A stretch of 64,000 nt of DNA from Liolophura sinensis (lineage: Eukaryota; Mollusca; Polyplacophora; Chitonida; Chitonidae), in contig NC_088303.1 of assembly GCF_032854445.1 (NCBI RefSeq), forward strand, positions 25,709,265-25,773,264, given 5' to 3'. Position numbers and translations under genes: made by a program. The notes under the pieces are model-generated. The model had not been told where the DNA came from. It did no database searches and was given only the letters and a program-made list of their open reading frames with translations. Positions 5,855-62,800 of the stretch are shown here, piece by piece. Numbering within the stretch: the first letter of the stretch is position 1; each line of letters starts with the position of its first letter.

Positions 5855-6116
5855 TCATTTATTTATTTATTTATTTGATTGGTGTTTTACGCCGTACTCA
5901 AGAATATTTCACTTATACGACGGCGGCCAGCATTATGGTGGGTGGAAACCGGGCAGAGCACCGGGGGAAACCCACGACTATCCGCAGGTTGCTGGCAGAC
6001 CTTCCGACTTACGGCCGGAGAGGAAGCCAGCATGAGCTGGACTTGAACTCACAGCGGCCGCATTGGTGGGAGGCTCCTGGGTCATTACGCTGCGCTAGCG
6101 CGCTAACCAACAGAGA
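5855..6116 (-). mobile_element. full-length tRNA-headed SINE (reference copy)
   Basis: Read on the minus strand, the element begins with a tRNA-like head (A box around GCTAGCGCGCTAACCAA in plus orientation, B box around TTGAACTCACAGCG), continues through a conserved body (CCGGCCGTAAGTCGGAAGGT in minus orientation) and ends in a core with TATAAGTGAAATATTC, then an ATTT/AAAT tail. At least ten related copies or fragments lie in the window. SINEs carry no protein and depend on a LINE for movement; this copy is well preserved. Confidence 0.85.
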
Positions 6117-7175: not shown

Positions 7176-7270
7176 TTACACTCCGTGAAAGTCATCGGCA
7201 ACAATGCTTCCACCCTGGGTAAAGTCCAAAATAAGATGCTCTCCTGCAGAAGGCTGGTAATAGCTCACAC
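7176..7270 (-). CDS. cobalamin-binding (intrinsic factor/transcobalamin-like) protein, terminal exon
   Basis: The last exon encodes the final 30 residues plus TAA. Its phase (two bases completing a Gly codon) fits the preceding exon at 10249-10379. The sequence GVSYYQPSAGEHLILDFTQ matches the pattern closing the beta domain (DUF4430) of vertebrate intrinsic factor and transcobalamin, where a GV..Y.P...EH.....FT strand pair ends the protein. About ten residues follow, slightly longer than in vertebrate proteins. The acceptor AG at 7272-7271 lies inside the final copy of the 51 bp array, so the real 3' splice site and the array are one continuous structure. Family members bind vitamin B12 in the gut or extracellular fluid. 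Alternatively this exon extends leftward through the array to an acceptor at 8291. Confidence 0.7.
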
Positions 7271-8290
7271 CTGAAATATAAAAACGATGATCTCCCAGAG
7301 AAGGCCTGTAAGTACTCACACCTGAAATATTGAAACTGTGATCTCCCGGAGAAGGCCTGTAAGTGATCACACCTGAAATATTGAAACTGTGATCTCCCGG
7401 AGAAGGCCTGTAAGTACTCACACCTGAAATATTGAAACTGTGATCTCCCGGAGAAGGCCTGTAAGTGATCACACCTGAAATATTGAAACTGTGATCTCCC
7501 AGAGAAGGCCTGTAAGTACTCACACCTGAAATATTGAAACTGTGATCTCCCAGAGAAGGCCTGTAAGTGATCACACCTGAAATATTGAAACTGTGATCTC
7601 CCAGAGAAGGCCTGTAAGTACTCACACCTGAAATATTGAAACTGTGATCTCCCAGAGAAGGCCTGTAAGTACTCACACCTGAAATATTGAAACTGTGATC
7701 TCCCGGAGAAGGCCTGTAAGTGATCACACCTGCATTATAGAAACTGTTATCTCCCAGAGAAGGCCAGTAAGTGATCACACCTGAAATATTGAAACTGTGA
7801 TCTCCCAGAGAAGGCCTGTAAGTACTCACACCTGAAATATTGAAACTGTGATCTCCCGGAGAAGGCCTGTAAGTGATCACACCTGAAATATTGAAACTGT
7901 GATCTCCCGGAGAAGGCCTGTAAGTACTCACACCTGAAATATTGAAACTGTGATCTCCCAGAGAAGGCCTGTAAGTACTCACACCTGAAATATTGAAACT
8001 GTGATCTCCCGGAGAAGGCCTGTAAGTGATCACACCTGCATTATAGAAACTGTGATCTCCCGGAGAAGGCCTGTAAGTACTCACACCTGAAATATTGAAA
8101 CTGTGATCTCCCAGAGAAGGCCTGTAAGTACTCACACCTGAAATATTGAAACTGTGATCTCCCAGAGAAGGCCTGTAAGTACTCACACCTGAAATATTGA
8201 AACTGTGATCTCCCAGAGAAGGCCTGTAAGTACTCACACCTGAAATATTGAAACTGTGATCTCCCGGAGAAGGCCTGTAAGTGATCACAC
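7271..8290 (-). repeat. 20 x 51 bp tandem array derived from a 3' splice site and exon start
   Basis: Exactly 20 units of 51 bp abut the terminal exon. Each, on the minus strand, starts GTGTGAGTACTTACAGGCC or with a GATCAC variant and ends AATATTTCAG. The unit aligns with the first bases of the terminal exon (27 of 40 positions identical by hand count), and its end is the acceptor of that exon. Because 51 is a multiple of three and no unit has a stop, the frame is open throughout: GV(S/I)TYRPS(P/L)GDHSFNIS. Variants (S or I, P or L, and a FYNAG form in two units) are interspersed. Each plus strand unit also carries GTAAGT. It may be an intronic minisatellite, an array of alternative acceptors, or one long coding exon adding 17-residue beta-hairpin-like units. 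Confidence 0.9.
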
Positions 8291-8345
8291 CTGCAATATA
8301 GAAACTGTGATGTCTCGGAGAAGGCTCACACCTGAAATACAGAAA
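8291..8345 (-). promoter_or_regulatory. candidate outermost 3' splice sites of the array
   Basis: Two acceptors end the array. At 8292-8291 TATATTGCAG leads in phase into all 20 units. At 8333-8332 CCTTTCTGTATTTCAG has the best pyrimidine tract of the locus, but the unit after it is 41 bp (10 bp deleted), so using it shifts frame and soon meets a stop. This short unit may be the array's decaying edge. Confidence 0.5.
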
Positions 8346-10248: not shown

Positions 10249-10379
10249 CCTTATCCAACAGGGTGTCCGGGGCCTGTAGAAATGACCACCATGTTCGGTC
10301 ACGTTCGTAGTCGGCTGTCAGATTGTTGATGGTCATGATCTGATAACCCAAATCCTCTCCACAGTAATACGCGGTGAAC
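10249..10379 (-). CDS. cobalamin-binding protein, beta-domain (DUF4430) exon
   Basis: A 131-base exon with acceptor TTATTCTCCAG at its upstream side and donor GATAAGG/GTGAGT at 10248. It encodes FTAYYCGEDLGYQIMTINN then DRTWWSFL and DTLLDKG. The pattern GY.I..INGL....DRTYW.FL....PLD.GV is characteristic of DUF4430, the C-terminal domain of intrinsic factor and transcobalamins, here with N in place of the usual G (INNL) and W for Y (RTWW). Phase is 2 in and 1 out, matching its neighbours on both sides. This exon is the strongest support for the family call. Confidence 0.75.
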
Positions 10380-11312: not shown

Positions 11313-11459
11313 CTAAAGCGTGGATCCTCTGTAGCAGCCTTCTCCATGATTCTCTGGAAGACTTCTCCTTCCAGAAGGGGTACATTCTGTGTCAGCACAA
11401 ATTTTGGATTTTTCAACTGGTTTCTGACCGTGTATTTCACCATAGGGCCAGGGCTGGAA
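11313..11459 (-). CDS. cobalamin-binding protein, exon opening the beta domain
   Basis: A 147-base exon (phase 2 in, phase 2 out) with acceptor CAATTAAG at 11461-11460 and donor TTTAG/GTAGTG at 11312. It encodes PGPMVKYTVRNQLKNPKFVL, then NVPLLEGEVFQRIMEKAATE and DPRF. A V.YTVRN..... strand followed by V..G.....VMEKA...D..F is how the beta domain begins in intrinsic factor. The exon joins in phase to 10249-10379 (AG plus G gives Arg, then FTAYY). The reading frame used here differs from the longest open frame in this stretch, which I consider a shadow. Confidence 0.65.
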   Translation of the reverse strand, partial: FQPWPYGEIHGQKPVEKSKICADTECTPSGRRSLPENHGEGCYRGSTL

Positions 11460-12755: not shown

Positions 12756-13932
12756 TTTTTGAATAACTATGACGTCACCCGAGGTATTTGGTTCTTGCCG
12801 TCGAAACCGAACTTATGGACTTAATGAAGCATTATGAATAAGAAAAAGTATTCTAACTTCATTTTCCTAGCAAGAATATGAACTTCAAACATATCCCTGT
12901 GTAGAGCTTGCATGGGTTGTTAGGTGACACTGACTAAAGGCAATTCTGGTAGCGAGTATGACTGGTTTTACTGACAGCTGAATATAGGCGACTCTCTAGA
13001 AGAAATAGACTTTAAAACACAGTATATATACATTGTCGATAATACTATATATACATGTATCTCCGTTGAGCAGACGCACAGCACAGAGAGTAAAACCAGA
13101 GCACGCGACCGGTGAAATACTAATAAAGTAACCTGAGAAATACCGATACAAATAAAGTAACCTGTGAAATACGGTTACATATAAGCCATGTGCGTCTTTT
13201 AGAGCAATTATAAGTAGCAGCAGATTGCAGGCTTAACAGTGAAACACTGCCTTCTGAGAAAACAAAAATCTCCGCATTGGTAGATTTTTGTCCAGCGGAG
13301 ATAGCCGTACACAAAGCAATCAGTATCATTGTTCGATTTGGTCATAAGAATTTATACCTTTGTTATAGGCTTGCTGATTTATTTACCCCAGGCCGATTAT
13401 TAGCAGCTTCGGTAAGTTATTGACTAACTTTACCACATGTGATACACATCACATTGGAGGAAGACAAAATATCTTGAGCTAATTTTAGACTGCGCTAACA
13501 GCCACACCAGAGTCGTCGATCGCTTACTCTCACCAAGGCCCCACAAGCACTGATAGCAGGAGAATCTACAAACGTCCTGTCCATCCAAGGCGGGGTTTGA
13601 ACCCATATCTAGTAATGTGTGTCCTAGTAACTGTGAAGCAAGCGCCACCAGTGACTTTAGTCTGTTTCTTTAATCAGTCGACTATATTCAACTACCTGTC
13701 TAATCTGTTCAACTAATCTGTAAAATCCGTCATACTCGCTATCAAAATTGCCTTTAGTCAGTGACACTTAACAACATAATTTCTACACAAGAACATGTGG
13801 AAAATACATATTCTGGCTCAGAAAATGAAATTAGAGCACTTTTTTCTAATTCATAATTCCAAACTCCATCAGGTCAGTTTCAACGGCAAGAACTCATTGC
13901 CTCGGGTGTTGTCACAATTTTTAAAAGATAAT
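12756..13932. mobile_element. inverted-repeat element with arms of about 250 bp
   Basis: The left arm (12756 to about 13015) reads TTTTTGAATAACTATGACG, then TTCTTGCCGTCGAAACC, then GTGACACTGACTAAAGGCAA. The right arm (about 13660-13932) carries the reverse complement of the same landmarks in the same order. Between them is a spacer holding a SINE-like segment. No transposase is encoded, so it is non-autonomous or a foldback. The same arms recur in a different relative orientation at 45.7-46.5 kb. Confidence 0.7.
13430..13652 (-). mobile_element. tRNA-headed SINE-like element of a second family
   Basis: On the minus strand an excellent B box (GGGTTCAAACCCCGCC) lies about 50 bp downstream of an A-box-like TGGCGCTTGCTTCACAG. 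The 3' body (GATTCTCCTGC, TGTGGGGCCTTGG) differs from the abundant SINE of this window. It sits between the arms of the inverted-repeat element. Confidence 0.5.
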
Positions 13933-24968: not shown

Positions 24969-26200
24969 TCACACGTGGTCAGACAGATACACGGGCCGGA
25001 CGCGATTTCTCGATGGGAAGCGTCTAGGAATGTCCTGCTGGTTCGGTTCTGATGGAATGTTCAGATCATCGTTCCGATCGTTGACTTGCACTTCAGGTAG
25101 GTTGACTCTCGGGATTTTCTTCACATGAGAACAATTCCGTGCGTGCTGTGCACCGTTAGAACCTTGAACGATTACCATCGGTCCTTTTGTGGAGACCACT
25201 TTGAATGGGCGTTTGTCAAATTTAGTTGACAGTTTGTTTTCAAGTTTGGCTACTAGCAGGACGGTATCTCCTAGTTAAAGGTTGGAGACACGGGCACCAG
25301 ATTTCCGTCGGAACGAGCTTTCATTTTCAGCTTGGCTTGTGCATCACTTTGTTTTGCAGATTGATGTTTCTCGTTGCACGAAGAGCTTACAGGTTCTGGT
25401 AGTTTGGTCTTGATTGGCCGCGAAAAAGAGCAGCTCGGCCGGAGACACAGCTGTGGTTGAATGTGGTGTTGCTCGATAATTCAGCAGAAACTGGTTGAGA
25501 TCTCTCTTCCACTTCCCTTTTCAATGAAAGAGGGTCAAACAGCTTTTTTCTAAGGTCCGCATGAAGCGTTCTCACTCGCCGTTTGCTCTGGGCCAGTAAG
25601 GACTTTCTGTGTTTTTCTGTGTTTGAATCCTTGTATTTCCACAAATTTCGTGAACTCGTTATCAATGAATGGCGGCTTTAAGTAGTCAGTTTTAAGTACG
25701 TCAACACTGCCGTGTGTGGAGAAAGTTCTGTCAAATTTGGGAATCACATGGGCGGATGATGTCGATTTCACAACCTCAACTTCCGGGTAACGGGAATAAT
25801 CATCGATGCCAACCAGGAGGTGGTCACCGTTTGGGAAAGGCCCACAAAAATCGGCACTAACATGACTTCAGAGCTTTTCAGGCATTTTTGTCATATTCAG
25901 TGGCTCTGGTTTTGGAGATTGTCCGTTTGCTTGACATGGAATACACTGACTAATTAAAGTCTCTGTGTCCTCGTCGATACCTGGGTACCACACTTTTTCG
26001 CACAGCAACCGCTTTGTTTTCACGATGCCATGATGTCCTTCATGGGCAAGTTTAAGAATGTGTGATCTGAGCGCTTGTAGAATGATGATACGCGATCCGC
26101 GAAGAAGAATGTCACCAGACGGTGTCACACTCAGTTCATTTCTGCTTTTGTAGAACTGCTGTAGGCCTGCTTGTCCAATTTTCCAGATGAAAGAGCTGCC
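24969..26200 (-). pseudogene. Gypsy integrase region
   Basis: The frame at 26128-25868 has the zinc-binding region (HILKLAHEGHHGIVKTKRLL, then CIPCQ: H...H...C..C). The catalytic core follows at about 25870-25400 but is broken into several frames. The C-terminal, basic segment is at 25199-24969. The integrase would insert the cDNA copy; here it cannot be made as one protein. Confidence 0.85.
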
Positions 26201-26375
26201 GCGAGCTTTGTCATAACCTCGTCCTGTTTAGTTGCATTTTGAATATCAGTCTAAGTAAGTGACTTCGGCACAGCACTCTGGCGATGAAATTGACATATTC
26301 ATCGGCCTTGTTTCTGTCGGAGAAAGAAACTGTCGGCTGTTGAGACAGGAAATCTGCAGGGTTGTTTGCCCCTGG

Positions 26376-28165: not shown

Positions 28166-28239
28166 TGTTTTGGGGTTTTTGAAAAGGTGTATGCTTTTTG
28201 CCGTAGTGTCTCAGTTTCCCTGCGGGGGTGGGGGTGGGG

Positions 28240-28505
28240 GGGCTCCGTGGCTCAGTTGGTTAGCGGGCTAGCGCAGCGTAATGACCCAGGAGCCTCTCAT
28301 CAATGCGGTCGCTGTGAGTTCAAGTCCAGCTCATGCTGGCTTCCTTTCCGGCCGTACGTGGGAAGGTCTGACAGCAACCTGCGGATGGTCATGGATTTCC
28401 CCCGGGCTGTGCCCGGTTTCCTCCCACCATAATGCTGGCCGCCGTCGTATAAGTGAAATATTCTTGAGTACGGCGTAAAACACCAATCAAATGAAATAAA
28501 TAAAT
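28240..28505 (+). mobile_element. full-length SINE inside Gypsy gag (first)
   Basis: Runs head to tail on the plus strand: A box TGGCTCAGTTGGTTAGCGG, B box GAGTTCAAGTCCAGC, core TATAAGTGAAATATTCTTG, then an AAATAAATAAATC tail. Preceded by a G-rich run. Short open frames here are shadows of the SINE. Confidence 0.85.
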
Positions 28506-28540
28506 CATTTTGCCTTGGGGCGGGGGGGGGGGGGGGGGAA

Positions 28541-28804
28541 GGGGTCTGTGGCTCACTTGGGTAGCGCGCTAGCGCAGTGTAATGACTCAGGAGCCTCTTA
28601 TCAATGCGGTCTCTGTGAGTTCAAGTCCAACTCATACTGGCTTCCTTTCCGACCGTACGTGGGAAGGTCTTCAGCAACCTGCGGATGGTCGTGGATTTCC
28701 CCCGGGCGCTGCCCTGTTTCCTTCCACCAAAATGCTGGCAGCCGTCGTATAAGTGAAATATTCTTGAGTACGATGTAAAACACCAATCAAATAAATAAAT
28801 AAAT
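28541..28804 (+). mobile_element. full-length SINE inside Gypsy gag (second, tandem)
   Basis: Same orientation and boundaries as the copy just upstream, separated by TTTTGCCTTGGGGC and a G homopolymer (about 28520-28538). The 3' flank, TTTGCCTGGCTTG, resembles the sequence between the two copies, which suggests one SINE insertion followed by tandem duplication, or two insertions at one target. Confidence 0.85.
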
Positions 28805-28859
28805 CAATTTGCCTGGCTTGTTTGAGAGATTGTTTACAGTGACTGGGGCTGGCTCTCAC

Positions 28860-45299: not shown

Positions 45300-46830
45300 C
45301 ATCTCCTGGGAATGGTACAAACCGATGGCTCGATGATGCGGAGCGATGGCACGATGGCACCCTCCAATAGCTGATTGCCTAAGGGCAAAACCATTTCACC
45401 AGATATCGGTGAAAGAAAAGCAATTCACTAAGAAAACACTCAGGAGTATAACACACGATTCGATGGTACGATGGCACGAAGCGATGACACGATGCTAGCA
45501 TCGTACCATCCCTTTCTTGGCATCGTGTCATCGCTCCGTGTCACCGTGTCATCGCTTCGTACCTTCGTGCCATCGCCCTTCCATCAATGCTCACGTGACC
45601 AGGGCAGTACATTTATTTTCATTTTCCACTACTGACACGTCCAAAATTTTTTATACATACCCATTTGATTCGAGCGTTTATCCTTAAGCGTGTACACACA
45701 GGAAGCGGAACTATAGCCTATTTCTTTTCGCCAATCGACTATGTTCAGCTGTAAAATCATACTTGCTACCAAAATTGCTTTCAGTCAGTGACACGTAACA
45801 ACACAAGCTCTACACATAGACATGTTGGAAGTCCATATTCTTGCACAGAAAATACAGTTAGAACAATTTCCCTAATTCATAATGTTAAACTGTATGAGCT
45901 CTTTTTCGACGCCAAGAATTCATTGCCTCGGGGGACACCATAATTATTCAAAAAAAACTGTGGCATGCTGGATAATGGGCGGAGTTCAGTATGTTTAACG
46001 GGTTGTGACATGAGTTGCCTGAAGCCCTATCGATTTTAATCTAACCCTGTTTCTGGCACTGCATTGTTCGCATGCTTCAGTACAATATAACCTTCATAAA
46101 TGAGTGTTATTTATCTCATGTAGTATATGGTCTCACAGCAGTATGGTTTTAGAAATGGGTATCAGGAAATTTTTTATAAGAAAAAAGCAATGCAGTTTAT
46201 TCGCTTGGACAGTAGTGCATTTTGTGATACTGCATGGAGTTTGTTCTAATCGCACGTTGGTTCACCTATTTTAAAACAAATTTCTCACCGCGCCCATTGT
46301 CCAGCATGCCATTTGTTCTTGCATAGTTATGACGTCAACAGAGGGTTTTTGGTGTTGAAACCAGAATTATGGAGTTAACATTATGAATTAGAAAAATTAT
46401 TCTTACTGCATTTCCCGTGCAATAATATAAACGTACGACAAATCAATGCGTAGAGCTTGTGGCGTTATGTGTCACTAGCGAAAGGCCATTTTGGCCTTGA
46501 GTATGACTGATTTTACAGATAGCTGAATATAGGCGACTGCAGACTAAAATAAAGAATGTAGAAATAAAATGTACGCTCCACATACATCGTGTCCATCGCC
46601 CGGCAATGGCACGAAGCGATGGCACGATGATGCGAAGCGATGATACGATGGCACGAAGCGATGGTACGATGTCACGAAGCGATGGTATGATGTCACGAAA
46701 AGGCGACGAGATGGCACGAAGCCATGGCAAGATTTCACGAAGAGGTGACACGTTGGCACGAAGAAGTGACACGATGCCACGAAGAGGTTACACAGTGGCC
46801 CGAAGGGATGGTACTTTAAAGAAACAACAG
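45300..46830. repeat. large palindrome: 21 bp minisatellites, inverted arms and a short centre
   Basis: From outside in: GATGGCACGA-type repeats (45323-45360, 45457-45590), an arm (about 45725-45990), a centre of about 275 bp, the inverted arm (about 46265-46545), then the 21 bp minisatellite (46601-46815). Arm landmarks such as TGGCATGCTGGA, GGCAATGAATTC-like and GTCACTGACTG recur in reverse complement. The outer arm parts match the element at 12756-13932. Confidence 0.75.
46601..46815. repeat. 21 bp minisatellite, about ten units
   Basis: The unit is GCACGAAGCGATGGTACGATG, degrading to the right (AAGAGGTGACAC forms). Because 21 is divisible by three, both strands show artificial open frames. 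Similar units in the opposite sense lie at 45500-45590. Confidence 0.85.
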
Positions 46831-56800: not shown

Positions 56801-59800
56801 TATGTTGGGCCCTCAACAGCTTCCAATTGGTCAGTCTCTTTCGCCTTATCAAGCTTACGACGTTTCCACAGTAGAGTCGTGGCTCAACACCTGCATAACT
56901 AGCTTTAGATAGTCGCTTTCGTTTTTTCCTTTGCATTTGTTTTGCAGTGTGTTCCCCAGTCACTAGTTTTAATTTGTTCAGAACTGACTCAAATCCTTCT
57001 GGACCACTGTTAAAGTGAAGGACGGCCAATGCTACGGCTGTTTCGACCTTCATCTTCGAAGAACTGTCCACTTTAGGACATCTTTGCCAAACAGTACCAT
57101 TGAAACACTCATTTGTGTTCTGAGTTTTCATTCTGGAACATCTAGCTCACAGATGTTCATCTGTCAGTCTTTTGTACACTGGTAAAATAATTTCACCCAC
57201 ATCAACAGAAAAAGCTGGGGTATGTTTTCGCACTGCCTGTCCTGTTGCTACTGCACGGTTATAGTGGCACCAAGACTTGGGACCTTTTGGGCAAAATTTG
57301 TGATGGGGTTTGCTGTCAGTTGATAGCATGTGGAAATACCCTGCAAAAACATTGTTTTTCATAGTCTGCACATCTGGAGCACCACTTTTCAAGTTACTGG
57401 CATATGTGCTGCTACATTTCTTCATGGCAAACTTTGTCAATTTTCTGTTTAAACTTTCCCCTCTCGCCTTACTTCGTTGTTTCAATTTGTCAAGAGCAGT
57501 ATACATGCGCTTGGCAACGTGATTTACACATTCTTCTTTCTGAATGTCGTTGTCACCATACAACTTAAGATTACGGACATGATCATATGCTTTGGAATCT
57601 CCGTCTGTAAGGACCTGGTTGTACATGAGTCCTTTGTCTGTAGATCGCTTAAAAATAATATCAGTACATTCAACTTCCATAGCATTTGCTGATCCATGGA
57701 AATTTTTCTGACAGGAGTGTGTTTGTTTCCACTTCACTAAATCTACACCTTTCTTAGTTTTTCCAACAGTGGCACAGCCATGACAGTAATTAGAACATAC
57801 GTGAGTGTCCAGCACGACACCTGAATCCACATCTATGACACAGCCTAACCCATAATGGGAGCTATGTCCACGTTTCTGCCACGAGCCATCATAGCTGACT
57901 ACACGTGGAACCAGTCCATTTACTGCCTCATCTGAATCACGTTTTAGTGCCTCGGCAGCTGCATGCATGTTTTCCTTTGCTGCTTCAATTGAAACATCAT
58001 GAACTAACCTGTCAATCTTTTGCCAGGTCTTGATGTGCATAGGCTGAGGCAAATTCATGTCAGCAAAAAATTCACAAATCTTGTTATATCCTATGCCAGT
58101 ATTTTTGCACGCTGCTACAAAACGTTTGTTCACAAAATTAGACATCTCATTGCCAGATTCCATCCCCTTTTCAGATGTGTAGCCATGAAAAATAACATCT
58201 TCACAGTCTCTGCAAAATATTTCAAACTTAAAATTCAAACCCTGACCACCGCCAAATTTGCAGTTTGTTGAGTCATTTATTTGAAATAATTTTATATTTG
58301 CGGATCCACAAACCTTGCAACACACACTGTTAACAATCTGTGCTAAGAAGTCAGTATTTACCAGTCTGTAGCCATTCAATTTGTTTATTTCAACTTTTTT
58401 GGCAACTTCAGTCGGCGAATTTTCTCTGTCCGAGTTGGGCCCACTTTCCAAGTTCCCATGAAACATATCAAATTTTGACTGACTTGCCGTTTTGGCTAAC
58501 GATATTCCATTTTCTGAGATAGAATTGTAATCGCTTTCGGTTCTATTCACCAAGTCCGAGTTTAACCCGGAAGCAACTTTGGCGATCGACAAGGCGTGTT
58601 TTTTCGGCCTTCCGCCAGCTCGCCCGCGCATTTTGCGCCCCCGCTTTCGAGATCCGAACATTTCCTTTGTTTTGACCTTTTGTCGAACCATTTTGCCGCT
58701 TGACACACTTAAAAAACGAAAATGAACACCAAATGACTAGGCTTTTTCCCGATCAACTCAAATTTGGTCTGCCATATTGGATGTAGACACTGCGCATGTG
58801 CGGAAGTAAACGGAGATGAATGAGACGAATATAGACCAATCGGAAGCCGGTATACCCTTCATATGTCGCTGTTCTTACCTTATATGGAAATTTTCGTTGA
58901 AATTCCAGGAATTCTACACCGGACACTGAACGAAAAGTACCGGGAATTTCCTTATATAGATTATATGGCGAGACTCAGCATTGAGCGGCCTTTTGAACGA
59001 TATATAACATGTCTTATTACAACAACAACACTAGGGACACGCGAGGCAAATTTGAAGACAAAAACCAAGTGATTGTTACCGTCAAACCGTCAAAATCTTT
59101 GACCTTATCAGAAGCCACTACATCAAAACATCTTTATTTCTTCAAAAAACAGTCGTGTAGGGCATTAAAAATTTAAATGGCGTGTTTTTTGATAAATATG
59201 CTGTCGTTTGAAACACAAATTGGAAAATCGTTAGATGACGTGAAAATTGACATTCAGAGGGGCCGTGTCCCACCTTAAATGTAACCAGTTATTGAGTTTT
59301 TTATTCAACCAAAGGACCGAATACTGGCTCGTCCAGGTGACTTCTATGAACCCGTGTTGTATGAGTGGAAATTTGAACCTTTCAGGGAAACCAATAGCAG
59401 TGACTCATTCAAAAGGAAAGGGGACTAAACTCCAGCCTGGAGCTAATCGCCAGCTAGAAAAGGCCTTATGGGAACAAGGTAGATCCAAGAGAGCTAGAGG
59501 AAAGGCCAACAGCAAGGTTTCACTGCCAGAGCAGAGCTGTGAGGATGAGGGAACAGCACCAGCTGACTCAGCTGCTGCAAATGCAGATGTCCGGGCCATA
59601 TTGACAAGCTGTGCTGCATCCGAATCGTCTGAGGAGTTTTACTCCATGGCTGAGATTGCATCCTGCAGTTATGAAGCCAGACAGGTATATGTAATTGTCT
59701 TGCTAGGTGTCATTATATGTGGGATACCTCCTGATATGGATCTTCAGACACTCGAGAACGGCCACATCTTTACACTGTGTTGTCATAGTATTAGTGTATT

Positions 59801-62800
59801 GAACATTGTTTTCTTTCATTATAAAGTTACCGATTTTCCTTTGTTCAAGAAAATAGAAGTACTGAGTGTTTTTTTTTTTTTCGTGATCATTTGGTTGGGC
59901 TTCTGTGGCCAAGTGGTTTGCATGGTAGGGCCTCTCGCCAATACGGTCACTGTGAGTTCTAGCCCACCTCATCCTGGCTTGCTCTCCAGTCGTACATGGT
60001 AGATCTGCCAGATACAAAATTTTCCACAAGCGTTAATCAAAGTGTGATGTTTAAGGGCTGTGATCTCAGAAAGTGTTGAATATGTTCCTTTTCAGAGGCT
60101 ATATTCTGAAAGCCTGGGTAGGAAAACCCCAGTTTGTGAATTTCCAGATATCTAGTCTTCTTCAGTAGGAAATTACTGTCATCTAAGAATGCTTCCATGA
60201 CAAATAAGTGTTCCGAGACTGTTAAAAATGAACAGTACATGGCATTTCTAAAAGGGCATATCTCAAAAACCACTTAGAATTTAGAGTTGTAACTTTACAA
60301 ACCTTCCTCATATATGCTAAGGTGTGTTTAAGAATTTTTACAAAATAATCCAAGGGGGTCACTACAAAAAAAAAATTTGGGCTGATTTGACACAGAATGA
60401 CCCTTCTTTTCTTAGGTTAGAGTTCAGAACAGCATGTTGGTGGGAGGAGCAGCCTGACAGCTGTGTTTGTGGTTGTTTTCTGTTCTTAGGTTGGAATTAA
60501 GAATGACATGTTGATGGGAGGAGCACACAATCTGAGAGCTGTGTTTGTTGCTGTTTTCTGCTCTCAGGTGGGAGTTAAGAATGGCATGTTGGTGAAAGGA
60601 GTACCGAGCCTGACGGCTGTGTTTGTTGCTGTTTTCTGTTCTTTGGTTAGAGTTAAGAATGGCATGTTCGAGGTAGGAGCACATCATTACAGATGTGTTT
60701 GTTACTGTTTTCTGTTATTAGGTTAGAGTTAAGAATGGCATGTTTGTGCGAGGAGCATACAGCCTGACAGATGTGTTTGTTGCTGTTTTCTGTTCTTAGG
60801 TTAGAGTTAAGAATGGCATGTTGGTGGGAGGAGCATACAGCCTGACAGCTGTATTTGTTGCTGTTTTCTGTTCTTAGGTTATAGTTAAGAATAGCATGTT
60901 TGTGCGAGGAGCATACAGCCTGACAGATGTGTTTGTTGCTGTTTTCTGTTCTTAGGTTATAGTTAAGGATGGCATGTTGGTGGGAGGAGCATACAGCCTG
61001 ACAGCTGTATTTGTTGCTGTTTTCTGTTCTCAGACTGACATTTAGAATGACAGTGTTAGTGGGACAGGATCACAGTCAGCTGTATTTGTTGATGTTTTTT
61101 TGTTCTCAGGCTGGCGTTAAGAACGGCATGTTCATGGGAGGAGCAAAGAAGCTTTGTCCTGATTTAGTCACCATACCTTACGATTTTGACAAATACAATG
61201 AAGTCTCCAGACAGCTGTATGACATTGTGGCAAGGTATGGTGTGAATACTTCCCTACCAATAATTGCTGACACAGCGATAAATGTTTTATTGGCTGCCTT
61301 CAATTCTAATGATATGGTTAATTTCAAAAAGCTATTTCTGGCTCAAGTCAAAATTTAAAGTAAAGATAAAGCTGAATTAATTGATAAAGTAGTATTCCAG
61401 AAATGTTGTAAAAATATTTTTAAAATTCTACACCGCTTCTCAACAAAAGAAATAGCAAACAATCGTGAGTGTTGTAGCCACTCATTTGGTGTTGCCATGT
61501 TATAGCTAACACCCGATACCCAACCAAAGAGTATTAGCACAGTTCTGTGTTCAAAGGCCTGATGTATTGTTTAGTTTGGAGTCCTGCACGTCTTGGTCCT
61601 GCATGGCTGTAGACATTTGGCCCAGCTGACTACTGATTTCAAGGAATTTAACGAACATAGCAGGACCTTCTGATTAATGACAGACTTTTTCATTCAGATT
61701 TTGGAAAGATATTTTCATAATAAATCTGACTTTGCTAAGGACAAATATGGTGAAGTCAGAATATTTTTCTTAAAGCGATTGTCTTGCCTGCTCGCCCTGA
61801 CAAGTTACTGCAGTATCCTGTCCAACATGCACGCACTGTGACATGAGCAGCTGTTCTCAGATCGCTGCTCATAAATGTGTGGTCCAAAATGCATCAGTTT
61901 AACACTTAAACTAACCACAAAATCCAATTTATTGCATTGATATTGGTTTATCCACTATAAGAAACCACGCTGACAGTCAAAGGCTAATAGGTTCTCTGAG
62001 GTGACAGCCAGTTATCATGTGACGCTTTCAGTGCTAGTGACTGGCCAAGTTCAAAAGATCTTCTACAACATTGTTACTCGGAGTGAATTGTCTGTGAGTG
62101 CCACATTCCAAGAGCTGAGCTCCATCTTCTCGGCTTTCAAAACTTTAAAGAATTTTTTACATATTTTTCTGTGATAACGGTGTCCTATATCATTTTTTGT
62201 ATGAATATACAGTGGCGGACTTTATGTTCAATTTGAAACCTTATGACAATGCTTAGTTTGTGATACTGGCAGTTGCAATTTTGACACATTGGTCATAAGA
62301 TTCCTTTAAGACATCCATTTGGTGTCAAAATTTTAAAGATAAAAATCACCCTTCCGACTCCTATTTCAAAGTTTGACTTAAATCAGAAAATGGCTTTTTG
62401 GAATCAGTCCATGCAATATTAATTTTTTTTTTCCACTTGCTGCAAATGCAGCAAACAATAGAAATGTATTGAATATCTTAAATTGACAGATTAACTGCTT
62501 TAATGATGTGTTATCTTTTGCCTGTACTATGTTATCCAGCTACACCCATGATATTGAAGCTGTAAGTTGTGACGAGATGCTGGTGGACTGTACGGACCTT
62601 CTTGCGGATGTTGGAGTGTCTCCATTAGACTTTGCCTCAGCCTTGCGACAAGAGATTCAGGAGAAGACAGGCTGTTCTGCTTCTGTTGGAATGGGTACAA
62701 TTCTGTTGTCTTGTGTGGAAATAATGATAATGTAATAATACTAATAATAATCTTTATCAAATTCCTCTCCTTTCTGGTCGTACATGGGAAAGTCTGTCAG

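Follow-up and report, generated by a model that had tools for sequence, protein, structure and literature searches.

The question raised by this locus is whether tandem copies of a splice acceptor and exon start, adjoining the last exon of a chiton gene, contribute to the protein or are removed with the last intron. A preliminary description of the DNA had proposed a length-variable exon, a set of alternative acceptors, or a minisatellite whose open frame is selected or accidental. We analyzed a window of 64,000 nucleotides (the whole stretch of DNA considered here, to which coordinates refer unless stated otherwise) from Liolophura sinensis, corresponding to C9:25709265-25773264 in the 609-Mb assembly, in which C9 is 37,343,639 bp long. 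The published genome of this species is described as ~609 Mb with a scaffold N50 of 37.34 Mb (PMC11068029), and a later correction changed its species name from L. japonica to L. sinensis (PMC12441733). The array belongs to a nuclear gene of the chiton, encoded on the minus strand.

The best protein match of the gene was NCBI 'uncharacterized protein LOC135475394 isoform X2 [Liolophura sinensis]' (118 aa; P0001). We placed three exons on the minus strand: a first beta-domain exon at 11313-11453, a second at 10249-10379 that lies upstream of the terminal exon and ends in phase 1 before a GTGAGT donor, and the terminal coding exon at 7176-7270 (VSYYQPSAGEHLILDFTQGGSIVADDFHGV, stop), whose acceptor at 7270 is the one used in the NCBI model. 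The gene product referred to below is these three exons joined, with residue numbers starting at the first exon placed (11453-11313). A candidate signal-peptide stretch was seen near 13330, also on the minus strand. The joined product matched the beta domain of human gastric intrinsic factor (3kq4, E 1.5e-10) over residues 7-112 of 124, and Pfam DUF4430 scored 13 bits, under its cut-off of 23.8. An AlphaFold single-sequence model of isoform X2 had a mean pLDDT of 36 and was set aside. By its match to intrinsic factor, the product carries a C-terminal beta domain, as in the eukaryotic cobalamin carriers intrinsic factor and transcobalamin.

The gene had been called a B12 binder, and the beta-domain half of that assignment stands. 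The alpha domain (PF01122) gave no match above cut-off anywhere in the genome (best E 0.0755) in a six-frame, exon-by-exon search that a very diverged copy could escape. Cobalamin binding by the gene product would thus be predicted from the beta domain, the only one found. Related beta-domain exons are present on C7 (10.35 Mb) and C9 (25.08 Mb), and there was a weak third match on C1 (E 0.27). There are at least three loci with beta-domain exons in a genome where PF01122 stays below cut-off, and the chiton genome possibly contains beta-domain-only relatives of intrinsic factor.

The array consists of 20 tandem 51-bp units at 7271-8290 on the minus strand and directly adjoins the terminal exon (7270-7176). 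Tandem Repeats Finder (TRF) reported the region 7248-8325 with a period of 51, 21.1 copies, 93% matches and 0% indels. The units start at 8290, 8239 and so on down to 7321, and each begins with GTGTGA and is preceded by CAG. With head-to-tail units of 51 bp, within the range of roughly 10-100 bp, the array is a minisatellite. The expected 20 copies abutting the last exon were all found, plus a 21st, damaged copy of 41 bp at the edge (8331-8291, minus strand), which is preceded by a strong acceptor (CATGACCGCTCGCCTTTCTGTATTTCAG). Eleven of the 51 columns vary between units; the inner copy at 7780 has seven differences, and most other inner copies are near-identical. It is scarcely credible that the copy number is an assembly artefact. 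HiFi coverage was just 14x according to the genome paper (PMC11068029), but the mean HiFi read of ~8 kb (calculated from the base and read totals in Table 1 of the same source) is much longer than the 1-kb array, and the units differ among themselves.

Each unit is made of ~36 nt of the start of the terminal exon and ~15 nt of its 3' splice site, in agreement with the origin first suggested for it. Compared with the terminal exon, the unit has 5 mismatches in the first 23 nt, 8 in 31 and 12 in 37. No other match to the unit as good as that of the terminal exon was found on either strand of the window outside the array region, and the likeness is therefore not due to chance. The last 15 nt of the unit (GTTTCAATATTTCAG) resemble both the acceptor at 8331 (CTTTCTGTATTTCAG) and the acceptor at 7270 (GTTTTTATATTTCAG). 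The array is thus a splice-site minisatellite, since each unit includes a copy of the 3' splice site of the adjoining exon. Each unit encodes 17 residues, which had been taken to copy a closing pair of beta strands, but the last few residues come from the acceptor and copy no strand.

When joined to the exon at 10379-10249, all 20 array acceptors gave stop-free products, ranging from 138 to 461 residues. Phase is therefore kept in 20 of 20 cases from the phase-1 upstream exon, with no stop in any unit, as had been predicted. The acceptor at 8331 causes a frameshift, with a stop after 105 residues. There is also a 392-residue stop-to-stop frame through the array and the terminal exon, for which Pfam gave sub-threshold matches only.

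A check for excess synonymous change between units, as a coding tandem-repeat protein would have, found none. There were 8 nonsynonymous and 3 synonymous variant alleles, against a neutral prediction of 8.3:2.7 derived from all possible non-stop changes in this frame (112 nonsynonymous and 36 synonymous), although weak selection could easily escape a test on eleven variant alleles. Among the three synonymous alleles, AGT to AGC is always accompanied by a nonsynonymous neighbour (AGT to ATC), which tilts the count by codon still further towards nonsynonymous change. Because the substitution ratio is neutral and the frame is broken at 8331, we rejected a selected repeat protein. More generally, we consider it highly improbable that the array is constitutively included in the last exon and encodes a repeat protein. 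The 392-residue frame does span both array and exon, but it is broken at 8331, the sole high-scoring acceptor upstream of the array, the NCBI isoform X2 is without the array, and the changes between units are neutral.

To compare the acceptors with one another, we scored them with a matrix made from 59 acceptors of the same genome, taken from 60 myosin exon rows, one of which had no clear acceptor. This is a small matrix with automatically chosen exon borders, some of which may be wrong, and a score is not a measurement of splicing. The acceptor at 7270 scored 13.0 (88th percentile of the 59 myosin acceptors). The 20 array acceptors scored 4.6-8.2 (8th-27th percentile), and each has another AG 14 nt upstream. 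The acceptor at 8331 scored 11.9 (76th percentile), with 82 nt separating it from the nearest AG upstream. The last unit has four differences from the consensus, all inside or just before the acceptor stretch, and together these account for the higher score of the acceptor at 7270. NCBI isoform X2 joins 10249 to 7270 and leaves out the array residues.

These scores bear on whether the array acts as a set of working alternative acceptors, yielding proteins in which 0 to 20 additional 17-residue units precede the last strand. Products in frame and without a stop result from all 20 acceptors, and their scores, while low, are inside the range of real acceptors. A far stronger acceptor at 7270 adjoins them, however, the substitution pattern is neutral, and arrays of like architecture at REV1 and myosin exons (below) have no open frame. 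In addition, no array-containing protein was found when the protein database was searched with the 20-unit product (region 1-100, against 12 candidates) or with the 10-unit product (against the 7991 candidates sharing most words). We therefore regard such use of the array as improbable.

The acceptor at 8331 is a somewhat better candidate. If it were used in some transcripts, the product would have a shortened C terminus (VSLLRDITVSILQV, stop) that replaces the last strands, and such use would be compatible with a neutral array. The score and the distance to the upstream AG correspond to the usual layout of a true acceptor, and the product stops after 105 residues. The protein cluster of isoform X2 has 2 members, and of isoforms X1 and X2 the comparison took in X2. 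On the other hand, isoform X2, the only isoform compared, takes the acceptor at 7270, and the alternative product would be left without the strands that close the domain. Use of 8331 thus seems unlikely, but partial use would be the most plausible route by which the array could affect the protein.

The array is absent from two related genes. The paralogues on C7 and at C9:25.08 Mb share this last intron, with a single strong acceptor in each (scores of 12.5 and 13.7; last exons recognized by eye), and TRF reported no array at the last acceptor of either. The last intron of the C7 paralogue has a minisatellite of its own (47 bp x 10.5; positions 1706-2198 of the minus strand of C7:10347402-10350551), which is located ~60 nt past the donor and has no splice site within its unit.

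A second, independent array of acceptor plus exon start is present in the same window. Nine copies of 74-78 bp occupy 60416-61109 on the plus strand (TRF 60404-61145) and adjoin an exon at 61110-61234 on the plus strand (AGVKNGMFMGGAKKLCPDLVTIPYDFDKYNEVSRQLYDIVA; its end was set by eye at AG/GTATGG) of a gene identified as REV1 (3gqc, E 8.2e-33). The unit comprises the acceptor of the exon and its first ~36 nt, with 7 mismatches to the exon over those 36 nt, and no match to the unit as good as that of the REV1 exon was found elsewhere in the window. One copy has no AG. The true acceptor is the strongest (97th percentile), and the nine copies fall between the 3rd and the 46th percentile. None of the nine copies reaches the exon in frame without a stop, and the REV1 array is thus a natural control, with a like architecture and a closed frame. 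Because REV1 and also myosin genes carry arrays of like kind, we rejected the idea that something special to B12 genes is involved.

The window contains several other repeated and mobile sequences. A 529-aa open frame at 57147-58736 (minus strand, opposite to REV1) matches a Mutator-like transposase (PF20700, E 6.8e-54) and is probably inside a REV1 intron, as judged by eye from its position between REV1-like frames. Retroelement remains are present at 24969-26227 (minus strand), with an integrase zinc-binding domain (PF17921, E 2.5e-13) at 25868-26227 (minus strand) and, by eye, retroelement-like frames downstream of it. Two tandem 301-bp copies at 28224-28814 look by eye like a tRNA-like SINE, and related sequence is found at about 6001-6110 and 59900-60010. 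ARAGORN found no tRNA in the window, including the SINE-like copies, and an Rfam scan of the window gave 0 matches. Two 21-bp arrays, at 45454-45576 and 46606-46810, have related units, some of them oppositely oriented by eye, and the second is open in one frame.

To estimate how common splice-site arrays are in the genome, we used the exons of one family, myosin, as a control, in the assembly of one individual. A search with the myosin head gave 76 exon matches, and the first 60 rows were examined for arrays, with at least 420 nt before the match and 420 nt after it. TRF flagged the arrays, and whether they spanned the splice site was judged by eye. Arrays of at least 3 copies spanned the acceptor in 2 of 60 matches and the donor in 2 of 60. 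The acceptor arrays were found in row 31 (95 bp x 3.1) and row 34 (32 bp x 13.3), and the donor arrays in row 18 (66 bp x 6.5) and row 45 (124 bp x 3.9). Row 50 has a further donor with a 2-copy duplication. In rows 31 and 42, for instance, no donor was evident at the end of the match in the stretch shown, and some other arrays do not reach the exon, such as those at the acceptor end of rows 24, 39 and 48. The extra sites of the four arrays gave no open product within the stretch fetched: the extra acceptors lead to a stop in 2 of 2 (row 31) and 12 of 12 cases (row 34), and the extra donors lie beyond a stop in 6 of 6 (row 18) and 3 of 3 cases (row 45).

Splice sites in arrays thus made up 4 of 120 myosin exon ends (3.3%, 95% interval 0.9-8.3%), with the denominators being upper bounds because some matches stop elsewhere than at an exon border. 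For comparison, 39 arrays (period of at least 20, at least 3 copies) covered 9.46% of bases in a random sample of 20 stretches of 10 kb each (200 kb). An enrichment of arrays at splice sites is not supported by this comparison; the sites are, if anything, depleted (binomial P 0.009, a rough value because the sites come in clusters from a few genes and not every row had its true splice site located), and perhaps arrays at splice sites are purged. A process that targets acceptors is not supported either: donors were hit as often as acceptors in the myosin sample. The numbers are small, and the two arrays of the window are both at acceptors. It appears that a genome-wide process catches splice sites, donors as often as acceptors in the myosin sample. 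In another chiton, Acanthochiton rubrolineatus, tandem repeats detected by TRF are listed as 9.21% of the genome (PMC11545220, Table 4), which is near our 9.46%, with different thresholds and in passages that are silent on splice sites.

How much luck does an open frame require? There were 21 arrays of at least 5 copies in the random stretches. The period was divisible by 3 in 8 of them, 7 had 0% indels, and 6 were at least 95% open in at least one of the six frames; of the eight that also exceeded 500 bp, two were at least 95% open. This control is loose, since some of the arrays may be coding, most are shorter, and six frames are allowed compared to the one fixed by the exon here. The part of the unit that derives from the exon has inherited its open frame, and an open array therefore needs little luck and no selection. 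Among the six splice-site arrays of this analysis, the LOC135475394 array alone is open throughout and in frame. If each array had a chance of 0.1 to 0.3 of being open, a range that we assumed, the probability of at least one open array among six is 0.47 to 0.88, so at such a rate chance easily gives this result. A point against a neutral array is that 20 of 20 units keep the frame without an indel, unlike the REV1 array, although 0% indels were also seen in 7 of the 21 random arrays above.

Very probably, then, the array is a neutral minisatellite that was born across an intron-exon border, is spliced out with the intron, and is open by chance. This explanation accommodates the anatomy and frame of the array, the low scores of the copies, the neutral substitutions, the absence from two paralogues and the recurrence of closed arrays elsewhere, all of which were observed. 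The array would have arisen by a tandem duplication across the border of the last intron and the last exon, and the duplicate may then have grown to ~20 copies by unequal exchange or slippage. The ancestral acceptor probably stayed upstream, at 8331, as a relic next to the damaged 5' edge copy. The acceptor copy adjacent to the exon, at 7270, would be the working 3' splice site, with the array removed together with the intron, and 8331 and the weak copies in between would be minor or error sites at most. Three features keep the frame open: the exon start from which the unit descends is itself open, the unit length happens to be a multiple of three, and the short acceptor stretch happens to contain no stop. 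Of the readings first proposed, the evidence favours the minisatellite with an accidental open frame. Given the weak copies, the neutral changes and the omission of the array from isoform X2, neither a length-variable exon nor a set of alternative acceptors is supported.

Repeats that multiply splice sites, or affect splicing, have been described in other systems. The closest precedent appears to be the minisatellite of human IFI6 (6-16, G1P3), whose downstream units are reported to act as donors and to give three mRNAs (Turri, Cuin and Porter 1995, Nucleic Acids Res 23:1854; PMC4526556). There, as in the chiton, the border of an exon and an intron holds a minisatellite whose units repeat the adjoining splice site. 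In IFI6, however, it is the donor that is repeated and units are reported to be used, whereas the chiton array repeats an acceptor and its copies have low scores and seem not to be used. Tandem duplication of AGGT-containing segments has been described as giving rise to introns (Rogers 1989; Hellsten 2011; both as cited in PMC4974935), and in fission yeast genes a 24-bp AGGT segment was multiplied according to the same source. Each chiton unit likewise has a CAGGT and is potentially both acceptor and donor, but the array duplicates the 3' end of an existing intron and no new intron is evident. An intronic VNTR of ABCA7 is said to affect splicing (PMC5954066); it is similar, by its description, as an intronic tandem repeat with a reported effect on splicing. 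In the open-licence literature, titles and the beginnings of abstracts yielded no paper on minisatellites that multiply splice acceptors.

A single locus of this kind would be a curiosity; as a class, these arrays describe a genome in which ~3% of sampled splice sites are tandemly multiplied. With several per cent of splice sites multiplied, and in the rare arrays whose unit length and frame permit it, low-level splicing to several of the copies could give a B12-binder-like protein a number of extra 17-residue units that varies between individuals with array length, although we think this improbable. The arrays also call for caution, because in such genomes an open frame through an exon-adjacent minisatellite is weak evidence for coding. 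At the same time, the two arrays in the window and those at four of 120 myosin exon ends are natural series of near-identical acceptors or donors. They would allow one to ask, with ordinary RNA-seq as the readout, how the spliceosome picks among a number of similar sites, whether by strength, by distance or by the first AG.
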